Shown here in pieces: positions 118-20,176 of a DNA stretch of 26,378 nucleotides. The notes beneath the pieces were generated by a model. The model saw nothing but the letters and a program-made list of their open reading frames with translations, ran no database searches and had not been told where the DNA came from. Each line of letters begins with the position of its first letter. The first letter of the stretch is position 1. Origin of the DNA: a virus; the IMG/VR virus record IMGVR_UViG_3300035070_002725, positions 1 through 26,378 of that record, one strand, 5' to 3'. The position numbers were made by a program, and so were the translations under genes.

Positions 118-1202
118 TGGCGAGTGATTCCGCATTAATCGCTGTTGAGGTTGGACATCAGGTCGACCTTATCCGCTTTTCTAACTCAATGGGTGCGGCG
201 GTTAATCCGCACCTAACCAATATCTCCAAGTACGTTCGTGAGGTGCTTTACCGGTGGGAGAAGTTAGAAACCAAAAAGGATATGGACGAGGCTGTCAGGT
301 TGATATCTGAAATGATGACGGTTGAGCTTGGTGAGTTTACGGGTGAGTTTGAATCCGATGTTAGCGCGTTAATTAAGGAAGAGATCGACTTCCAGTATGG
401 TGTGGCAAAGTCTGCTATTGGCGCTGGAACTGCAGTAGCTAGGCCGACAGTTAAAGCTACCACTCAATTAATTAACTCCATCCCAATGGTGCTAAATGGC
501 AATGCAATTACAGTCGACCAATATATCGGTGATTACACGCCTAATCAGATTGCAAAGGTTAAGCAGAAGATAGTCGCGGGATGGACTGATGGACTAACAA
601 CTCGAGAGATTGCGCAAAGCATAACTGGCACAAAGTCAGTTAAAGGTGTTATTCAAACCTCACAACGTAGCGCTTATATGATGGCCAAGGATGTATCCAC
701 TCACACTAGCTCCCAGACAAAGGCGAGAGTTTGGAGGGATAATGACGACTTGATAATAGGAGAAAAGACAGTTACAACCCTAGACTCAAGGACTTCAGAT
801 ATTTGCAAGTACTACGGAAGTCAGGATGGTGGCGGTAAGGAGTGGCTGTACTCTGAGTACGGGTACAATTTCCCTAGGCCAGGATTTCACCCGAACTGTA
901 GGAGTACTAACGTGCCAATTCTAGCTAAGGAGTATAGAGAAATTGCAGAAGAGGGAAGGGAGAGACCAGCAGTAATTGACGGAAAGGCTGAAACCGTTCC
1001 AGCAACCACAAACTGGTATGACTTAGCAAAAGAGAATTCAATTCTTGCCGAGCAATCACTTGGTGCAAGTAGGGCTAAATTATTAAGTGAGATGAGCACT
1101 AAGGAGTTTATCGATACGGCTTACACTAGACTTGGTACATCTCTAACTCTTGAAGAAATGAAGAAGAAGAACCCGAAGGTTTTATCTATTCTTGATAGTT
1201 AA
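117..1202 (+). CDS. MuF-type phage head morphogenesis (minor head) protein
   Basis: This 361-residue protein has the C-terminal signature of the Phage_Mu_F family (SPP1 gp7 / Mu gpF). A TLDSRTSDIC segment (residues 221-230) is followed by RPGFHPNCRST (254-264), the Cys/His pattern that ends the MuF domain. The N-terminal ~200 residues are helical and polar, as in other members. MuF proteins are minor capsid components bound near the portal and are thought to act in head assembly or DNA ejection. Start choice: ATG at 117 has a GGAGG Shine-Dalgarno at 106-110. A position between portal and scaffold is the usual one, though the portal gene itself lies outside or is interrupted upstream. No toxin domain is fused at the C-terminus, unlike in some polymorphic MuF proteins. 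The last 17 bases overlap the 3' end of the antisense HNH gene. Confidence 0.9.
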   Translation: MASDSALIAVEVGHQVDLIRFSNSMGAAVNPHLTNISKYVREVLYRWEKLETKKDMDEAVRLISEMMTVELGEFTGEFESDVSALIKEEIDFQYGVAKSAIGAGTAVARPTVKATTQLINSIPMVLNGNAITVDQYIGDYTPNQIAKVKQKIVAGWTDGLTTREIAQSITGTKSVKGVIQTSQRSAYMMAKDVSTHTSSQTKARVWRDNDDLIIGEKTVTTLDSRTSDICKYYGSQDGGGKEWLYSEYGYNFPRPGFHPNCRSTNVPILAKEYREIAEEGRERPAVIDGKAETVPATTNWYDLAKENSILAEQSLGASRAKLLSEMSTKEFIDTAYTRLGTSLTLEEMKKKNPKVLSILDS

Positions 1203-1866
1203 TTCCCTTGTTTATATTCTCTTGCCTCCATAGGACTTGAAGGTTGCTTAGGGCATTTACGACAGATGGATCAGTTACTCCCTGCTTTAAAAATAATGAA
1301 ACTGGCTTGATGTGGTCTATATGCCATAGCGATCGCTCATCCCAGTTCATTCCATCTTTAAATTGTGATTCTATGTGAGATATCAATTCATCCCTTGTGT
1401 ATCCAAGTATAGCTTCATTCTTAGGAACGCTAACTCCAACCTCAAGCCTGTATAGTGACTTCCTTACGTTCGAGTTTTCTGGATTTCTAGACCTCCAGTC
1501 TCTCTGGAGATTTATCATGTAATCTCTATTTTCATTCCTGTACTTCCTTGATTTTTCTGCGAGAATCTCCTTGTTTTCATTTCTGTACCTTGCGTTTGAT
1601 GCATTTACCTTTTCTTTGTTTTCTTCCCTGTATATCTTTGATTTTAGTTTTTCCTCATCCTGATTTGCGTAGTAATACTCCTTTCTTTTTACCCTGAAAT
1701 ACTCCCTGCGCCCATCGGCCTCTCTTTTTGTCTTTATGCTAGTACAATCACAGCACGACCCATTGGATGTGGTTCTTTCCCCTGCGTGCCCTCGCTTGCA
1801 AAGCTTGCCAGTGTAGTACCTAATCAAGCCAAGCGATTTTGCTTCCTGTCTGGTGATTATCTTCAT
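1186..1866 (-). CDS. free-standing HNH homing-type endonuclease
   Basis: This 226-residue protein has a C-terminal HNH nuclease motif: WHIDHIKP (residues 181-188; His182 and His185), the ALSNLQVLW segment (205-213) and the asparagines of ENINKG (216-221). It matches the family pattern GYT..ELISHIE.QF..GMNW.....WHIDH seen in many phage HNH proteins. The N-terminus holds a likely zinc-binding unit (Cys23, His27, Cys38/39, Cys41). Between the two lie lysine/glutamate-rich repeats of the form YRxENKE (~79-115), probably a DNA-binding linker. The start ATG at 1866 has GGAG about nine bases upstream. The gene is antisense to its neighbours and sits alone between MuF and scaffold, which is typical of mobile free-standing endonuclease genes rather than head genes. 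The product would cut DNA at a site in related phages and promote spread of its own gene. Confidence 0.92.
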   Translation of the reverse strand: MKIITRQEAKSLGLIRYYTGKLCKRGHAGERTTSNGSCCDCTSIKTKREADGRREYFRVKRKEYYYANQDEEKLKSKIYREENKEKVNASNARYRNENKEILAEKSRKYRNENRDYMINLQRDWRSRNPENSNVRKSLYRLEVGVSVPKNEAILGYTRDELISHIESQFKDGMNWDERSLWHIDHIKPVSLFLKQGVTDPSVVNALSNLQVLWRQENINKGINYQE

Positions 1867-10074: not shown

Positions 10075-10106
10075 GTGGTATAATCAACAAAAAGAGGATT
10101 ATACCA
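10075..10106 (+). promoter_or_regulatory. late-type promoter inside an inverted repeat that reaches the start codon
   Basis: GTGGTATAATC (10075-10085) is an extended -10-like box without a -35 match. TGGTATAATC (10076-10085) is the exact inverse of GATTATACCA (10097-10106), with an 11-base spacer that holds AGAG of the ribosome binding site. The right arm ends in the A of the start codon. A transcript entering from upstream would form this 10-bp hairpin over the start. A transcript begun here (start predicted near 10091) lacks the left arm. Confidence 0.65.
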
Positions 10107-13667: not shown

Positions 13668-13990
13668 TGCATAACTGTGCGGGGGAGTTTAACTTAATGA
13701 AGCAATCAACCAACGGAAAGCGCACCAAGCGTCAAGAGTTGGAAGCCTATCAGGATATGAGCGGCGAGATTGAGCCAGAGTTAAACTTCCCCTCAATCCC
13801 TCCTGAACTGTCTCACGTAGTGGCAATTTACAACCAGCTTGGTTCGCTCCACTTTAATGAGCTTGAGTCCTATCAGTCTGTTTACGGTGTAACACTTAAG
13901 CGCTTTGAAATTGACGCAATGCTTGCAATAGAGTCCACAAAGACAAAGGTCTTTAATGGTGCATCACTAAAAGATTTTGAGGTTTACTAA
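13287..13990 (+). CDS. tail assembly chaperone, -1 frameshift long form (gpGT-like)
   Basis: A -1 slip at the A9 run (13650-13658) joins the first 124 codons to the overlapping frame, which re-enters as SQLMHNCAGEFNLMKQSTNG and ends at 13990, giving ~234 residues. The added part contains LHFNELESYQSVYGVTLKRF followed by EIDAMLAIESTK, which resembles gpT-type extensions. The extension frame has an ATG at 13667, overlapping the short-form stop, so weak independent starts cannot be excluded. The frame layout is the classic one for siphovirus chaperones, where a few per cent of ribosomes shift. Confidence 0.85.
13650..13658 (+). promoter_or_regulatory. programmed -1 ribosomal frameshift site
   Basis: Nine consecutive A residues read AAA AAA AAA in the zero frame, giving A AAA AAA heptamers. 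The zero-frame stop follows nine bases later. No strong downstream pseudoknot is obvious; CAGTTAATGCATAACTG (13661-13677) is a short perfect arm pair (CAGTTA/TAACTG) immediately after the run and may act as a stimulator. Confidence 0.82.
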
Positions 13991-16059
13991 TGGCACGCTT
14001 AACCGTAGAAGTAACAGAGAAAGGCATAAACCAAACCGACACTAAATTAAAAAAGCTTGGTCAAACAGCCTCGAAAACAGAAAAGCAAACTGACAAGTTA
14101 GAGGATGGATTCAAGTCATTCAGTAAAAATGCCGGCGCTGCAATCGCAGCAGTTGACGGTCCTCTTGGTGGTATATCATCAAGGGTGTCTTCTCTTACTA
14201 CACTATTTACAACTGGTGGGTTTGCGGTAACTGCTTTCGCAACAAGCATCACGGCGGTAACGGCAGGTTTAACACTAGGAATCACCGCCCTTGATGAGTA
14301 CGAGGTTAACCTTAAGCGCCTAGATGCAACAATTAGAGCTACCGGAGAGGGTGTTGGCTTTACTGCTGAGCAACTTCAAGAACAAGCCAGACAGCTTGCT
14401 TTTGCAACATTAACAAGCACCCAAGAGGTTCAAAAGGCACAGGCAAAACTAGTAACATTTAACCGCGTACTTGGTGCGGAGTTCGAGAGAACAATAAGAT
14501 TGTCTCAAGATCTTGCAGAAGCTGGTTTTGGTGACATTATCGGTAACGCAAACCAGCTAGGCAAGGCGCTACAAGATCCGATTGCCGGATTGAGCTCGCT
14601 GACTGAGGTCGGCGTAACCTTCTCGTCAGTCCAAAAGCGGCAGATAGATGATGCCATTCGAGCTAATGATGTTTTTGAGGCTCAAAGAATTATCCTTGAT
14701 GGTGTAGCGAGCCAAGTTGAAGGCGTTGCTGCTGCCGTAGCTAGTGGGACTCTTACAGGTTCAATTGATACACTTGGTCAAAGTTTTACCGAGCTTGCAA
14801 TAGAGGCTGCGAGAGCATCTGGAGCAATGGAGGTTGTCGTTGATGTTATCGATCAAATCTCAAAAGGGATGCAAGTAGCAAGAGAGACAATCGTTGAAAC
14901 CACAACGGCAGCAACGCTTTTTGATGAGGCACTGCAAAAGACCTTTGAACTAAGAGGGGCTGAGTCGTTCCTTGGGACTCTTGAGAAAAACAGCGCTGAG
15001 TACAACACTCAGATAGCACTTATCGCAAGACTAAAGGTTGAGCAGAGCGAACTTCAATCAGCATCTAAGGCGGCAGCTGAGAAAGAAAACGCAGCAAGAA
15101 AAGCTGCTGGTGATGCTCAAATAAAAGAGCTGGAAAGACGCAAAGCTGTAGAAAAGGAGCTAAGGAATGAGCAGTCCGCAGCTCTTGAAGAGGAAAGGCA
15201 GAAGCAAGCTCTTATTGATGACACCGCATTTGCAACAGATATAGAAGCAAGAAGAAAGCACTACGAAGAGCAAACGGAGCTTTTCAACACATACAGAACA
15301 GGCATAAACACAATTGAGGCTGAGCAGTCTGCTATACAAGCTGAGATAATGCGCGAAAACATGGCGCTTGCCAATGCCTCAATTCAAAGCGCCGGCAATG
15401 CACTGTCAAGCTCGCTTTCTAGTGGTATCGTTGCACTAGCCAATGGATCGAAAGACGCTAAAGATGTAATGCTAGATGTCGTTAATGCTGTTGCTACATC
15501 TGTCATTCAGGCTGGTATTGATATCTTGGTTCAGAAGACAATTACAGACAACATAGCAAAAGCACTTCTCGTTACTCAGACGACATCTGATGTTGCTCGT
15601 GGTGTATCTCTTGCTAGTTTGAACGCTTTCGCATCTACGGCGGCAATTCCAGTTGTAGGCTTAGCGGCAGCTCCAGCAGCGGCAGCAGCGGCAGCAGCTT
15701 CTGCGTCTGCCATTGGCGCTCCAGCTATCGCAGCGGCTGGTGCTCGCTTTCAAGGTGGTATGGGTTCGGCAGGTACGGCTTATAAATTCAACGAGCGTGG
15801 TGATGAGGCTTACGTACCAAAGGTTGATGGTAAGTTTATATCAGCAAATGACCTAAAATCATCAGTTGGAAATGGTGTCGGTGGTAATGTCTACATCACG
15901 AATAACACACCGGCAAAAGTTGAGGCAACTCAAGATAAAGAAGGAAACACATACGTCACCATCGAAGAGCTTGACTCACTAATAGGTGCCTCTCTATCAA
16001 ATCCAAATAGCGAGGGCTATCAAGGCCTGAGTTCAGTGGCTAGCCTCCAGAGAAGTTAG
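13990..16059 (+). CDS. tail tape measure protein
   Basis: This 689-residue protein starts on the overlapping TAATG of the chaperone frame. The N-terminal ~45 residues are a Lys/Thr coiled coil (GINQTDTKLKKLGQTASKTE). Hydrophobic segments follow at ~75-100 (FAVTAFATSITAVTAGLTLG). The region 110-260 is helical and resembles tape measure proteins of the Phage_tail_L / lambda gpH class (AFATLTSTQEVQKAQAKLVT). A long charged coiled coil covers ~330-450, and an Ala-rich stretch lies near 555-580. The glycine-rich end carries FNERGDEAYVPKVDGKFI, the typical C-terminal motif. With about 1.5 angstrom per residue, the tail would be about 100 nm. No lytic domain is visible. Confidence 0.92.
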   Translation: MARLTVEVTEKGINQTDTKLKKLGQTASKTEKQTDKLEDGFKSFSKNAGAAIAAVDGPLGGISSRVSSLTTLFTTGGFAVTAFATSITAVTAGLTLGITALDEYEVNLKRLDATIRATGEGVGFTAEQLQEQARQLAFATLTSTQEVQKAQAKLVTFNRVLGAEFERTIRLSQDLAEAGFGDIIGNANQLGKALQDPIAGLSSLTEVGVTFSSVQKRQIDDAIRANDVFEAQRIILDGVASQVEGVAAAVASGTLTGSIDTLGQSFTELAIEAARASGAMEVVVDVIDQISKGMQVARETIVETTTAATLFDEALQKTFELRGAESFLGTLEKNSAEYNTQIALIARLKVEQSELQSASKAAAEKENAARKAAGDAQIKELERRKAVEKELRNEQSAALEEERQKQALIDDTAFATDIEARRKHYEEQTELFNTYRTGINTIEAEQSAIQAEIMRENMALANASIQSAGNALSSSLSSGIVALANGSKDAKDVMLDVVNAVATSVIQAGIDILVQKTITDNIAKALLVTQTTSDVARGVSLASLNAFASTAAIPVVGLAAAPAAAAAAAASASAIGAPAIAAAGARFQGGMGSAGTAYKFNERGDEAYVPKVDGKFISANDLKSSVGNGVGGNVYITNNTPAKVEATQDKEGNTYVTIEELDSLIGASLSNPNSEGYQGLSSVASLQRS

Positions 16060-16063
16060 CAAC

Positions 16064-16117
16064 TTATCCCCTATTTCTTTACTGTGATATAATCTAGTAA
16101 ACGATTTAGGGGAATAA
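16064..16117 (+). promoter_or_regulatory. late-type promoter box inside a hairpin that masks the ribosome binding site
   Basis: GTGATATAATC (16084-16094) is the box. Around it, TTTACT (16078-16083) pairs with AGTAAA (16096-16101). Further out, TTATCCCCTA (16064-16073) pairs with TAGGGGAATAA (16107-16117, one bulged A), and this right arm is the ribosome binding site of the 16120 gene. A readthrough message from the tape measure gene would hide the site. A message started from the box would begin near 16100 and lack the left arms. Confidence 0.65.
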
Positions 16118-16119
16118 CT

Positions 16120-16605
16120 ATGCTTGTTGGTTACACTGACGATCTCGATCGCTTCCAGTATGGGGGCAAGATGAAACTTCCAGAACAGAGCTCATATAGC
16201 GTAACAACGTCTGATGGCTCTGTTGTTTCCTCAGTTGCTGGTGGCTTAACAAAAAGCCAAATCCAGTATTTCGACCAGCCATACCAAACCAAGGTTAACT
16301 ACATTGCCAAGGATGGGTTTGAAGCTGCTTACATTTCAAACTTCCTAGCGCTTCATAACGGTCAAAAGTTCATTGCTGAGTTGTTGGTTGGTGGTACTGA
16401 GACTGAAGAGTTTGTTGTTATGTACCTTGGTGACACCACAGGCTCACTTACAGGCTTTAATGGTAGTTTTCCAGTTACGCTAATTGTAGAGCCCGGCATC
16501 GATCGCTGCTTCCAGCAAGTTATTCAGGATTGGGGAGAGTGTGCAGGATCGGATACCTGCGACATATGGAATAACGCAGATAATGCAATTAAGGCCTTAC
16601 CATGA
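16120..16605 (+). CDS. minor tail (tail-tip) protein
   Basis: The 161-residue protein is the first after the tape measure gene, the slot of lambda gpM. It contains GKMKLPEQSSYSVTTSDGSV, the segment QIQYFDQPYQTKVNYIAKDG and FIAELLVGGTETEEFVVMYL, a beta-sandwich-like pattern ending in a cysteine-containing tail (CFQQVIQDWGECAGSDTC). Its start has AGGGG, potentially masked by the hairpin described at 16064-16117. Overlap with the next gene is four bases. Role by synteny: tail-tip initiator or distal ring component. Confidence 0.7.
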   Translation: MLVGYTDDLDRFQYGGKMKLPEQSSYSVTTSDGSVVSSVAGGLTKSQIQYFDQPYQTKVNYIAKDGFEAAYISNFLALHNGQKFIAELLVGGTETEEFVVMYLGDTTGSLTGFNGSFPVTLIVEPGIDRCFQQVIQDWGECAGSDTCDIWNNADNAIKALP

Positions 16606-17126
16606 TTTCATACACTGACCAACTCAAGACTGTAATTGCGTCATTTGTTACAAGTAAGGGGGAGTGTGAAGTCGTTCGCATCTCTCACCCCTTAATCCAG
16701 ACGCTTTACCTAACATCACAGTTAGCAAATAACACGGAAGTATATGATGAAAATAACCAGATCCAAACCGTTATGGCTGTGCCTATGTCTCTTACTGATG
16801 AGTCTAGTGGTAGCCTACTTCTTAATGAGCGAACTCTAACCCTGCAAGGTATTAATGACCTAGTAGCCAGCGAGGAAGATAAGATCCCACTATATGAGGA
16901 TGATTTAGAGAAAGTTAAAATCGATGTAATGACATACGTTGCGGATATTGATGGAACTCTATCTAAGATTGCATTAGGCCCAATCCGTTACTTTATGCAG
17001 AAGTCAGCGTACAGTCAGAAGAATAACAACGCATCGCTAACCATGAGCACATCACCAACAAACAAAAGCGAGACTGGTGAGAAAGCCACAAAGGCTAAGT
17101 TCCCAACGCTAAGCGGCGCTCTCTGA
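16602..17126 (+). CDS. tail-tip protein, DUF1833-like (gpL-type position)
   Basis: This 174-residue protein contains ECEVVRISHPLIQTLYLTSQ (residues ~22-41), then MAVPMSLTDESSGS and LTLQGINDLVASEEDKIP. The 'E..HP.....yl.n....v' start and later 'f.i..p......' segment fit DUF1833, a family found next to NlpC/P60 and gpJ-like tail genes. It overlaps the upstream gene by four bases and the downstream gene by one (TGATG). Confidence 0.72.
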   Translation: MISYTDQLKTVIASFVTSKGECEVVRISHPLIQTLYLTSQLANNTEVYDENNQIQTVMAVPMSLTDESSGSLLLNERTLTLQGINDLVASEEDKIPLYEDDLEKVKIDVMTYVADIDGTLSKIALGPIRYFMQKSAYSQKNNNASLTMSTSPTNKSETGEKATKAKFPTLSGAL

Positions 17127-17464
17127 TGATTCATTGGTCACGCAGATTTAACTGTGCATCATGGGCAATTGAAAGGCTTAATGAGCTACACGGGTTAAAC
17201 ATTAAGGTTTCACCTTTCGACGAATGGCAGTCGCAGTTCATTCCATTTATGCGAAACCTATTCAAACCAACTGATAGACCGGTTGATGGCTGCCTTGTTG
17301 TGATGAAGGGTCTAGATGGAGCGATGCACTTAGGTGTCTACGAAGATTACATGGTTAGACACAACTACAAAGCTTACGGCGGTGCTGGCTCACTTATAGC
17401 ATCAGATCTTGGTACAATACGCGCTGAATTTGATAAGAGAATAAGATTCTATGTGGTTAATTAA
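17126..17464 (+). CDS. NlpC/P60-like tail protein (gpK-type position)
   Basis: The 112-residue product keeps the core of the NlpC/P60-type cysteine peptidase fold. RFNCASWAIERL puts Cys10 at the start of a helix, and DGCLVVMKGLDGAMHLGVYE puts His68 in the following strand. VRHNYKAYG then provides polar residues (His79, Asn80) near the third catalytic place. Members in phage tails cut peptidoglycan peptides near the tail tip during DNA entry. The protein is short (one domain only, no JAB partner). Activity is likely but not certain, as the usual Asp-Cys is here Asn-Cys. Confidence 0.72.
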   Translation: MIHWSRRFNCASWAIERLNELHGLNIKVSPFDEWQSQFIPFMRNLFKPTDRPVDGCLVVMKGLDGAMHLGVYEDYMVRHNYKAYGGAGSLIASDLGTIRAEFDKRIRFYVVN

Positions 17465-20150
17465 AAAGATTGATGAAGATTTTAACGAGGAGCTGATCGA
17501 GGTTGCTTGCATTAAAACCTACGTGCAACTAAACATTGAGCTATTCAAGCAAGGATGGCGATTCTACGTTAATGACAAAGACATCACAGAGGACGCGTGG
17601 GCTTTAGCTGACAATCGCAACCTTACAATGATGCGACCAGCTCAAGGTCCAATCGCTCCGTTAATTCCATACATTGTTGGAGCTGTAGTTGCTGCTGTCG
17701 CTGTTGTTGCATTAACCCCTAAGCCAGAAGCTCCAGCAACTTCTAACCGCTCCCAAGAATCAGCGACCAACTCACTTGGTGCGCGAAACAATGAGTTTAA
17801 CATTGGAGGGCGAATAGATGATATCTGGGGGCGAGTTAATAACCACGTTCCACGATTGCTTCAAGTTCCACACTTTCGCTTTGTTGATAACGTAGAGACT
17901 GAAAACTTCGCCCTATACATTTCTCAGGGTAAAGTTGATATGCAAAATGTTCGAGATGGTGATACTGATTTCAGCTCACTCCCTAACGGACAGTTTAATG
18001 CATGGTGGCCTGGCGGCAATCCAAACAGCGGTTCTCAACCGGATTACAATGTTGGCACTGTAATTAATCGACCTCTAGTTAACGTTACCCAGTCGCGTGA
18101 GTTGCAGTCTGCTGAACTACTTCCTCCAAACGACCTTTACGTTGGCGGAACTCCTATATGGCGTGTAACTTCAAATGGTTCGGTTGGTACAATCACACTA
18201 TCAAATCCAGATGAAGTTGAAACCGATTTAACCGAACACTTTGCGGTAGGCTCTGATGCAGTTCTATTTGAGTGCACAGTTTTGTATAACACAATAGCTA
18301 CAGACCTTTATTACGATGAAGGCGGAACTGGCACTCCACAAAGTTTCGCATTATTTGACGGTATCGATGCTATTGATGGGACTTTTGAAATTACCGGCGT
18401 GACATCATCATCAATCACTCTCGATGTGTCAGGTAAGGGCTGGAATACCTATACAGACAAGCCATTACTAACGACTTTCTACGGATTTCAACGTCAAAGC
18501 GGATTTGCATCAAGCACTGAAGACGCTCAGATTAATGATCGCACTTGGTACGCAGACTCTGGATTGACAGACTTAATCACGGTCACTAGCACAGAAACAA
18601 AAGTCCCAAATATTGGGCAAGCGTTTGATTCAGCAATAGGCCCAATTAAAGTTAAGGATTTTACTGATACCATTTCATTAAACTTCGTTGCCGATAACGG
18701 GTTTTATAAGTACGTAGACAACACAGAAACAAATATCAATGGAACCATTGAGGTGCGCATACTTCAGACCGATGAGCTTGGCAACGTAACTGGAATTGAA
18801 ACTATTCAAGACGTTCCATTTAACACAAACGCATCAAGCAAGACGAGGCAGGCCGCAATAACGGTTGATATTAACAACCTTTATGATTATGCAATTATAT
18901 TCTGCCGAAGAACAACAGAGAGAGATAAGGCTGATAACGTTCAGAATGTTGATAAGGTATTCTGGCGTGACTTGTATTTCTACGACAATATTGGAAATCA
19001 AGACTATGGAAATGTAACAGTTGCGCAAGTTGTTATCCCTTCATCAATCGCAGCTCAAGGTATAAAAGAGCGCCAAGTAAACCTAGATTGCACCCGATAC
19101 ATTCAACCTTACATTGGAAACGGTAACTTTGGCGCGGAGTCTCCAGTTGAGACGGTTGCGGAGGTAGTAACCGCTTTGTCACTGGATAAACTAAACGGGC
19201 GCTTAACTTTAGATGAAATAGATGCTGACTTGTTCCTCGATGTTCAGTATCAGTTAATTAGCTATTACGGGACTGTTGACGCGGTTAAGGTTGGTTATGA
19301 TATCGACTCAACCAAGCTTAGATTTCAGGAAATATTCTCACTATTCTGGGATGCTGTTAGATGTAACGCTTACTCACAAGGCGCTGTTTATCGCGTATAC
19401 CCAAACATCGCACGCAGCACTCCTAGTAAGCAGTTTACGCACCGGAATAAGATAATCGGAACTGACACGAAGGAGAGGCTATATGACATTGAGAATGATG
19501 GTGTAGAGCTTACTTATCGAAGTAATGCAACAGGTCAGTTTGAGACAGTGATTAAGCATGTTAACGGAACTGATTCAGTTAACAGATTAAAGGTTGAGTT
19601 AAGCGGTGCGACACAAGCTATTCAAGCTGAAACACGCGCCAATTATGAGTTAAACAAAATCAAATACCAGAAGTATAACTTCACATTCGAAGCTGATGGC
19701 ATTGCAAGATTAACAGTGCCGGGTGAGCGAGTTACTAACGTTGACCAAACTCGAATTGTTAAGCGTGAAAATAACCTTAACACCTACAACATTTATGATG
19801 GTCTTGTGGTTTCGATTGATGGATTGATTGCTGAGTTATCTCAACCCGTATTATTTGAATCGGGTAAGACCTATAGCATTAGATTTACCAACTCAAAAGG
19901 CGAGCTACTAGAGGCTATTGGGTGCTCTGCTGGTGCGTCTAAGTACCATGTAGTTTTAGATTCGACACCAAGTGAATCTTTATACACTGGCTACAAGATG
20001 GAGAAAACAAACTTCACCTTAGCTCCAGATAATGAGCGTGATGGAATGGATGTTTTAGTTTTAGGAACCAAGGCTAAGCAGTCGAAAGGACTTAAAACAA
20101 GGCAATTAACATGCATCAACTACTCTCCTTTGTACTACCAAAACGACTAA
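17451..20150 (+). CDS. tail-tip central protein with gpI-like N-terminus and gpJ-like body
   Basis: This 899-residue protein starts 14 bases inside the preceding gene. Residues 1-65 resemble the ubiquitin-like start of lambda gpI proteins. A glycine/alanine hydrophobic stretch (IAPLIPYIVGAVVAAVAVVA, 68-87) follows, the hallmark of gpI. In lambda gpI and gpJ are separate; here the chain continues through NEFNIGGRIDDIWGRVNNHV and PRLLQVPHFRFV, the usual start of gpJ-type hubs. Later segments (YRVYPNIARSTPSKQFTHRN, then VELTYRSNATGQFETVIKHV and YQKYNFTFEADGIARLTVPG) suit baseplate-hub domains. The product is probably the central tail tip contacting host receptors together with the tailspike. Confidence 0.8.
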   Translation: MWLIKKIDEDFNEELIEVACIKTYVQLNIELFKQGWRFYVNDKDITEDAWALADNRNLTMMRPAQGPIAPLIPYIVGAVVAAVAVVALTPKPEAPATSNRSQESATNSLGARNNEFNIGGRIDDIWGRVNNHVPRLLQVPHFRFVDNVETENFALYISQGKVDMQNVRDGDTDFSSLPNGQFNAWWPGGNPNSGSQPDYNVGTVINRPLVNVTQSRELQSAELLPPNDLYVGGTPIWRVTSNGSVGTITLSNPDEVETDLTEHFAVGSDAVLFECTVLYNTIATDLYYDEGGTGTPQSFALFDGIDAIDGTFEITGVTSSSITLDVSGKGWNTYTDKPLLTTFYGFQRQSGFASSTEDAQINDRTWYADSGLTDLITVTSTETKVPNIGQAFDSAIGPIKVKDFTDTISLNFVADNGFYKYVDNTETNINGTIEVRILQTDELGNVTGIETIQDVPFNTNASSKTRQAAITVDINNLYDYAIIFCRRTTERDKADNVQNVDKVFWRDLYFYDNIGNQDYGNVTVAQVVIPSSIAAQGIKERQVNLDCTRYIQPYIGNGNFGAESPVETVAEVVTALSLDKLNGRLTLDEIDADLFLDVQYQLISYYGTVDAVKVGYDIDSTKLRFQEIFSLFWDAVRCNAYSQGAVYRVYPNIARSTPSKQFTHRNKIIGTDTKERLYDIENDGVELTYRSNATGQFETVIKHVNGTDSVNRLKVELSGATQAIQAETRANYELNKIKYQKYNFTFEADGIARLTVPGERVTNVDQTRIVKRENNLNTYNIYDGLVVSIDGLIAELSQPVLFESGKTYSIRFTNSKGELLEAIGCSAGASKYHVVLDSTPSESLYTGYKMEKTNFTLAPDNERDGMDVLVLGTKAKQSKGLKTRQLTCINYSPLYYQND

Positions 20151-20160
20151 TTGAAAGGTT

Positions 20161-20176
20161 GTGATATAATCACACT
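20161..20176 (+). promoter_or_regulatory. late-type promoter box with overlapping palindrome
   Basis: GTGATATAATC (20161-20171) is identical to the box at 16084. It is embedded in the palindrome TGTGAT-ATA-ATCACA (20162-20176 is mostly covered, starting one base earlier at T20160). TTGAAA at 20151 is only eight bases away, too close for a -35. It lies 30 bases before the tailspike ATG. The palindrome may bind a regulator or simply be part of the promoter class. Confidence 0.62.

Follow-up and report, generated by a model that had tools for sequence, protein, structure and literature searches.

A putative internal promoter inside a hairpin predicted to mask the ribosome site of a tail gene in a marine siphophage

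An internal sigma70-type extended -10 promoter appears to be enclosed in a hairpin that masks the ribosome site of a tail-tip gene, and the two together probably constitute a two-message switch, as judged from sequence and from modeled RNA folding. The element lies in an IMG/VR virus record that is 26,378 bases long and is related to Vibrio siphophages (this whole stretch, as analyzed, is referred to as the window), where it occupies the 60-nt gap from the tape-measure gene (stop 16059) to the tail-tip gene (ATG 16120). A readthrough message from the tape-measure gene would carry both arms and fold, and the tail-tip gene would be initiated poorly on it. A message from the enclosed promoter, beginning at about 16100, would lack the left arm, have a 20-nt leader with a free Shine-Dalgarno sequence and be translated well. 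The first of four overlapping tail genes would thus receive its dose mainly from its own promoter and be insulated from upstream readthrough. Insulation or dosage control is favored as the purpose of this arrangement over early/late timing.

Gene organization around the element

The source of readthrough messages would be the tail tape-measure gene (13990-16059, plus strand; phrog_1538, E 2.4e-38; Pfam TMP_2 above cutoff), which ends in TAG at 16057-16059. The last 300 residues of its product group with phage LP.2 (63% identity), and the last 12 residues together with the hairpin match phage 1.236.O instead; by these similarities the gene is of mosaic origin, with a junction near its end. The masked gene (16120-16605 by its ORF coordinates, plus strand) encodes a 161-aa virion (tail-tip) protein (phrog_384, E 1.7e-12) with homologs in 52 Vibrio phages, for which no solved structure or Pfam match was found. 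It is the first in a run of four genes that overlap end to start; the ORF list gives three more plus-strand tail genes downstream (16602-20150), namely 16602-17126 (a phrog_396 minor tail protein), 17126-17464 and 17451-20150, each overlapping its predecessor by 1-14 nt. Because the four genes overlap in this way, masking of the first start could affect the whole tail-tip block. Elsewhere in the window, an Endonuclease VII-like gene (phrog_1035; 1186-1866, minus strand) is situated between structural genes and is likely another mobile insertion.

Predicted folding and masking of the ribosome site

The sequence agrees with the description in the earlier note: TTATCCCCTA lies at 16064-16073, TTTACT at 16078-16083, GTGATATAATC at 16084-16094 and AGTAAA at 16096-16101, with the pairing partner TAGGGGAATAA at 16107-16117, and the ATG follows at 16120. 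All parts of the element are on the plus strand. The outer left arm, TTATCCCCTA, faces the outer right arm UAGGGGAAUAA (16107-16117), which includes the Shine-Dalgarno sequence AGGGG (16108-16112); the outer pairing leaves one unpaired A on the right side, and in the minimum free energy structure 16067-16073 pair with 16107-16113. Inside it, the fold joins the inner left arm UCUUUACU (16076-16083) to an inner right arm in the AGUAAACGA region (16096-16105). Folding of 16050-16135 as RNA gives -24 kcal/mol (z = -3.2; 1 of 200 shuffles as good). The window has no second site at which the two outer-arm cores are found together.

The earlier note had proposed that a readthrough message hides the ribosome site and a short one does not, and both the predicted opening costs and the comparison of phages bear this out. 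Opening of the ribosome site in the window is predicted to cost 15.5 kcal/mol on the readthrough message versus 4.4 on a message from about 16100, and any start from 16097 to 16102 gives 3.8-4.5 kcal/mol. When the 5' end is trimmed in the model, the cost is still 15.1 kcal/mol with an end at 16066 and falls to 3.6 with one at 16072, which in the model shows the left arm to be the switch. By sequence, the promoter message would lack the 5' strand of the helix, since the -10 lies at 16088-16093, the inferred start at 16100 and the left arm at 16064-16083. When the gene starts of each genome were scored with a fixed 20-nt short leader, the long-versus-short difference of this start ranked first among 41 starts in the window, 66 in 1.236.O and 74 in jenny 12G5. 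Shuffling of the leader upstream of the ribosome site reached the observed masking in 1 of 1000 trials for the window, 1 of 1000 for 1.236.O and none of 1000 for jenny 12G5. An intrinsic terminator was rejected as a reading of the hairpin, there being no stem with a T run here on either strand; nor does any terminator pattern lie between the tape-measure gene and the next gene. An Rfam search of the window gave no match at the gathering score.

The enclosed promoter box

The box TGTGATATAAT (16083-16093) is, by sequence, a perfect extended -10 promoter, with TATAAT at 16088-16093 placed in the loop and inner stem; it is identical in 1.236.O and jenny 12G5. From promoter spacing, transcription would start at the 7th base after the -10, position 16100. 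No recognizable -35 is found at this box, a promoter listing gave no promoter there, and a scan of viral contigs for the exact promoter consensus found no match. The TGTGNTATAAT form of the box occurs three times in the window, always on the plus strand and always 15-45 nt ahead of a start codon, and a reversed-pattern control gave none; across five related genomes there are ten forward copies, no reverse copy and no reversed control.

The same TGTGATATAAT also stands at 20160-20170 of the window, ahead of a spike-like gene (20202), and this copy is conserved in four relatives, where it is followed by TTCACAAAAC; it looks like a family promoter consensus without a -35. At these spike-gene promoters the predicted opening cost is low (4.2 kcal/mol in the window; 1.0, 2.1, 1.8 and 3.4 in the relatives), and promoters of the same class taken together (five of spike genes and one after an HNH gene) give 1.0-5.3 kcal/mol, without strong masking. 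Since the spike-gene promoters carry the box without a strong mask, a promoter of this type does not bring the hairpin along.

Conservation of the hairpin in related phages

Vibrio phages 1.236.O and jenny 12G5 have the same 60-nt gap between the two genes. Across the three diverged hairpin phages (the window and these two), the 11-base promoter box is constant, as are the outer arms TATCCCCT/AGGGGAAT; one A-U pair of the outer stem has become G-C, and both partners differ in two pairs of the inner stem. The earlier expectation that the arms are kept as pairs in related phages is upheld in this sequence comparison, the outer arms being constant and the inner stem being re-lettered yet still pairing. 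The inner stem TTTACT/AGTAAA itself is present in the window, but its letters are not conserved, and the relatives build their inner stem from others. When the partners are slid by 1-3 columns, the pairing is lost. Covariation counted on the RNAalifold structure was equaled in 39 of 500 shuffles and, in an alignment of three rows, is not significant. The predicted opening cost of the long message versus that from the phage's own promoter is 15.1 versus 2.0 kcal/mol in 1.236.O and 16.5 versus 1.7 in jenny 12G5. A CRP-like reading of TGTGA-N6-TCACA in these two phages was set aside, since its TGTGA half is the extended -10 motif itself and the window does not keep the right half.

The hairpin arrangement is present in three of the eight phages of the clade; in the remaining five, the gap is occupied by an HNH gene. 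In distant relatives (L008 and L012-L017) the two genes abut, with neither gap nor hairpin; the element is therefore not needed for this gene order. Protein and alignment searches of viral and genome contigs returned one truncated locus (L009) or none.

HNH cassettes in place of the left arm

In five phages (1.265.O, 242E40-1, 1.178.O, 1.198.A and 1.135.O), an antisense HNH endonuclease gene lies between the same two genes; four of them match HNH families, and that of 1.198.A was assigned by position and annotation. All five keep TGnTAyAAT 26-28 nt ahead of the ATG and lack the left arm, and in all five the predicted masking is gone, with an opening cost of 1.5-3.4 kcal/mol when 85 nt upstream are included; one of them reaches 7.0 kcal/mol with 200 nt. 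The closest pair of alleles is that of 1.236.O and 1.265.O, which are homologous up to CAAT, immediately ahead of the left arm, and again from GTGATATAAT, placing the cassette exactly where the left arm would be and leaving the promoter and ribosome site in place. In a tree built from the masked gene, the hairpin phages each have HNH phages as their sister group (support 100/99, 99/99 and 99/99), and the states have thus changed at least three times. In the HNH phages, the tape-measure message crosses about 600 nt antisense to the HNH gene before the tail-tip gene, so masking is perhaps unnecessary there.

The antisense HNH gene of 1.265.O (L002 1675-1694) overlaps the final 20 nt of the tape-measure gene, whose opposite strand thus encodes the last codons of the HNH gene. 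In OX241574 (L003 1640-2401), a gene annotated as "putative portal protein" matches HNH endonuclease families (phrog_953, 2.7e-64). Another antisense gene of the same annotation lies between the neck and tail-completion genes of 242E40-1 (L024 22684-23488), and TGTGATATAAT follows this insert, ahead of the next gene. Inserted antisense cassettes look as if they supply, or preserve, a promoter for the gene that follows.

Similar sites elsewhere

A scan of IMG/VR with a pattern of both arms around TATAAT matched two loci. One of them, in an unrelated phage (L010 1820-1879), is a further good case, 5 nt ahead of the ATG of an unrelated early-region gene. Its arms (1820-1885) are CCCC/GGGG and GTGTGTT/AACACAC around TATAAT, the 7-pair inner stem was not demanded by the pattern, and the predicted opening cost is 12.1 versus 1.7 kcal/mol; it is plausibly an unrelated case of the same device, with a promoter that is less certain because TATAAT lacks the TGn extension. 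The other match (L011) lies inside a long ORF and is a chance match. From a second pattern scan, three loci (L025, L026 and L028) were rejected because they look like ordinary -35/-10 promoters beginning CCCCTTGACA; a fourth (L029), also set aside, is ahead of an SmpB-like gene and has a competing stem. A long perfect palindrome around TGTGATATAAT at an IMG/VR contig end (L027 1-180) is probably a fold-back assembly artefact.

Within the window, the segment 10074-10108 reads TGTGGTATAAT; its GGTATAATC (10077-10085) pairs perfectly with GATTATACC (10097-10105), which abuts the ATG at 10106. Here the left arm is itself the -10 box and would therefore be missing from the gene's own message, and the predicted opening cost is 7.5 versus 2.4 kcal/mol for the long and short messages. 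Immediately ahead of this promoter is a hairpin that resembles a terminator and has a T run. In jenny 12G5 (L022 274-351, with a copy before 40353), a strong hairpin, AAAGCCTC...GAGGCTTT, contains the start of a gene annotated as "regulatory protein", and TGGTATTAT lies in its loop or beside it, making this site a further candidate for a promoter in a masking hairpin.

Alternative explanations

The strongest alternative, to which we give a substantial but somewhat smaller weight, is translational coupling. On the operon message, the tail-tip gene would be kept silent by the hairpin unless a ribosome that ends translation of the tape-measure gene opened the left arm, and the promoter would add uncoupled expression. 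Between stop codon and left arm lie 4 nt in the window; in 1.236.O and jenny 12G5 the distance is about 3-4 nt, and in the distant relatives the two genes directly abut. Unfolding of RNA by an upstream ribosome is also an accepted model, including for phages f1 and MS2 (PMC12548453). When a ribosome is simulated as covering the message to 15 nt past the first base of the stop codon, the three hairpin phages all show a fall in opening cost, from about 15 to 1.9-3.6 kcal/mol (3.6 in the window, with the left arm covered to 16071), and the long message therefore need not be silent. However, the effect depends strongly on the assumed footprint, as with 12 nt covered the cost is still 7.4-10.4 kcal/mol, and the ATG lies 60 nt beyond the stop, and coupling drops with distance (PMC12548453). 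Coupling also leaves the perfect promoter in the loop unexplained. Coupling and masking are not exclusive; they can coexist, and the confidence placed in one overlaps with that in the other. The hairpin may exist for the sake of coupling, or coupling may be a leak on top of masking. A broader reading, possible but distinctly doubtful, joins these elements: the site would be a combined insulator and coupler and the empty allele of a homing-endonuclease site, the tail-tip operon would require either its own promoter or ribosomes that finish the tape-measure gene, and HNH cassettes would replace the left arm and convert a masked into an open promoter, with at least three changes of state in the clade.

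The two-message switch is also preferred to the other explanations. The earlier note had carried over the temporal logic of T4, and a strict gate of that kind, in which early readthrough is silenced and a phage-modified late polymerase uses the enclosed promoter, would fit an anatomy like that of T4 e, soc and I-TevI. This part of the proposal does not hold up well: the box is a host-type extended -10 and shows no T4 late-promoter sequence, and relatives carry similar boxes ahead of late genes as well as ahead of the replication operon, those at the replication operon being nearly identical. Given that a late structural gene lies upstream and that the box resembles host promoters, the timing part of the T4 story is not carried over, and a strict gate seems unlikely. 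RNase III-type processing sites are known in lambda and T7, and a stem of about 18 pairs between late genes might be such a site, or another kind of processing site, cut on long messages to free the ribosome site, with the likeness to TATAAT incidental. Such processing is just as improbable, because the 11-base box is identical in the three hairpin phages, is retained where the left arm is lost and stands ahead of spike genes without any such stem, and the stem itself has internal mismatches and is short for RNase III. That the invariant outer arms form a palindrome around the promoter could further point to an operator or an invertible promoter acting as DNA, with RNA folding as a by-product. 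This is very improbable, as the outer-arm cores are paired only at this site of the window, the inner stem keeps its pairing with changed letters, the promoter has the same orientation in every phage seen, and a repeat of 7-9 bp around about 35 bp is small for an invertase.

Comparison with known systems

The closest counterparts are the leaders of T4 e, soc and 49, in which the ribosome site is paired on long messages, one or more promoters lie in the region of the 5' strand and the short messages lack this strand (PMC3014915). For T4 e, translation of the long messages is lower by about 100-fold, and the late promoters within the 5' strand give messages that avoid this silencing (PMC3014915). 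In the window, the Shine-Dalgarno sequence is likewise predicted to be paired on the longer message (15.5 kcal/mol, z -3.2), and the arrangement is conserved in related phages. In contrast to the T4 leaders, where phage late promoters are used and early messages are silenced, a sigma70-type extended -10 is found here between two structural genes; by its sequence it is not a middle or late phage promoter distinct from that of the long message. The element is accordingly filed as a variant of the T4 leaders, as it would work in the same way but lacks the late-promoter feature. A promoter in a hairpin that hides the ribosome site has also been described for I-TevI, segB and Aeh1 mobE, and the group of I-TevI, I-TevII, I-TevIII, T4 segB and Aeh1 mobE shares with the element a promoter in or at such a hairpin (PMC2988022). 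There the masked gene is a homing endonuclease; in the window a tail gene is masked, and in relatives an HNH gene takes the place of the left arm.

Coupling by unfolding, as in phage f1 VII/IX and MS2 coat/lysis, likewise involves an inhibitory structure at the downstream ribosome site near the upstream stop (PMC12548453). In the window the upstream stop is similarly near the structure, ending at 16059 with the arm beginning at 16064. We know of no f1 VII/IX or MS2 coat/lysis coupling structure that encloses a promoter. In the protection of IS10/Tn10 from external promoters, readthrough messages fold and hide the start, and the element's own messages do not. That system differs in that it guards the transposase of a mobile element and not a phage structural gene. 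Ribosome-site-masking hairpins with an enclosed promoter have been described chiefly in T4-type phages, in which lysis and homing endonucleases are timed by them. That such a hairpin is conserved between structural genes of a small marine siphophage, with a host-type promoter, suggests that the device can set the dose of one gene block in a long operon, and the natural alleles that have the left arm can be compared directly with those that lack it to learn what masking is worth to the phage.
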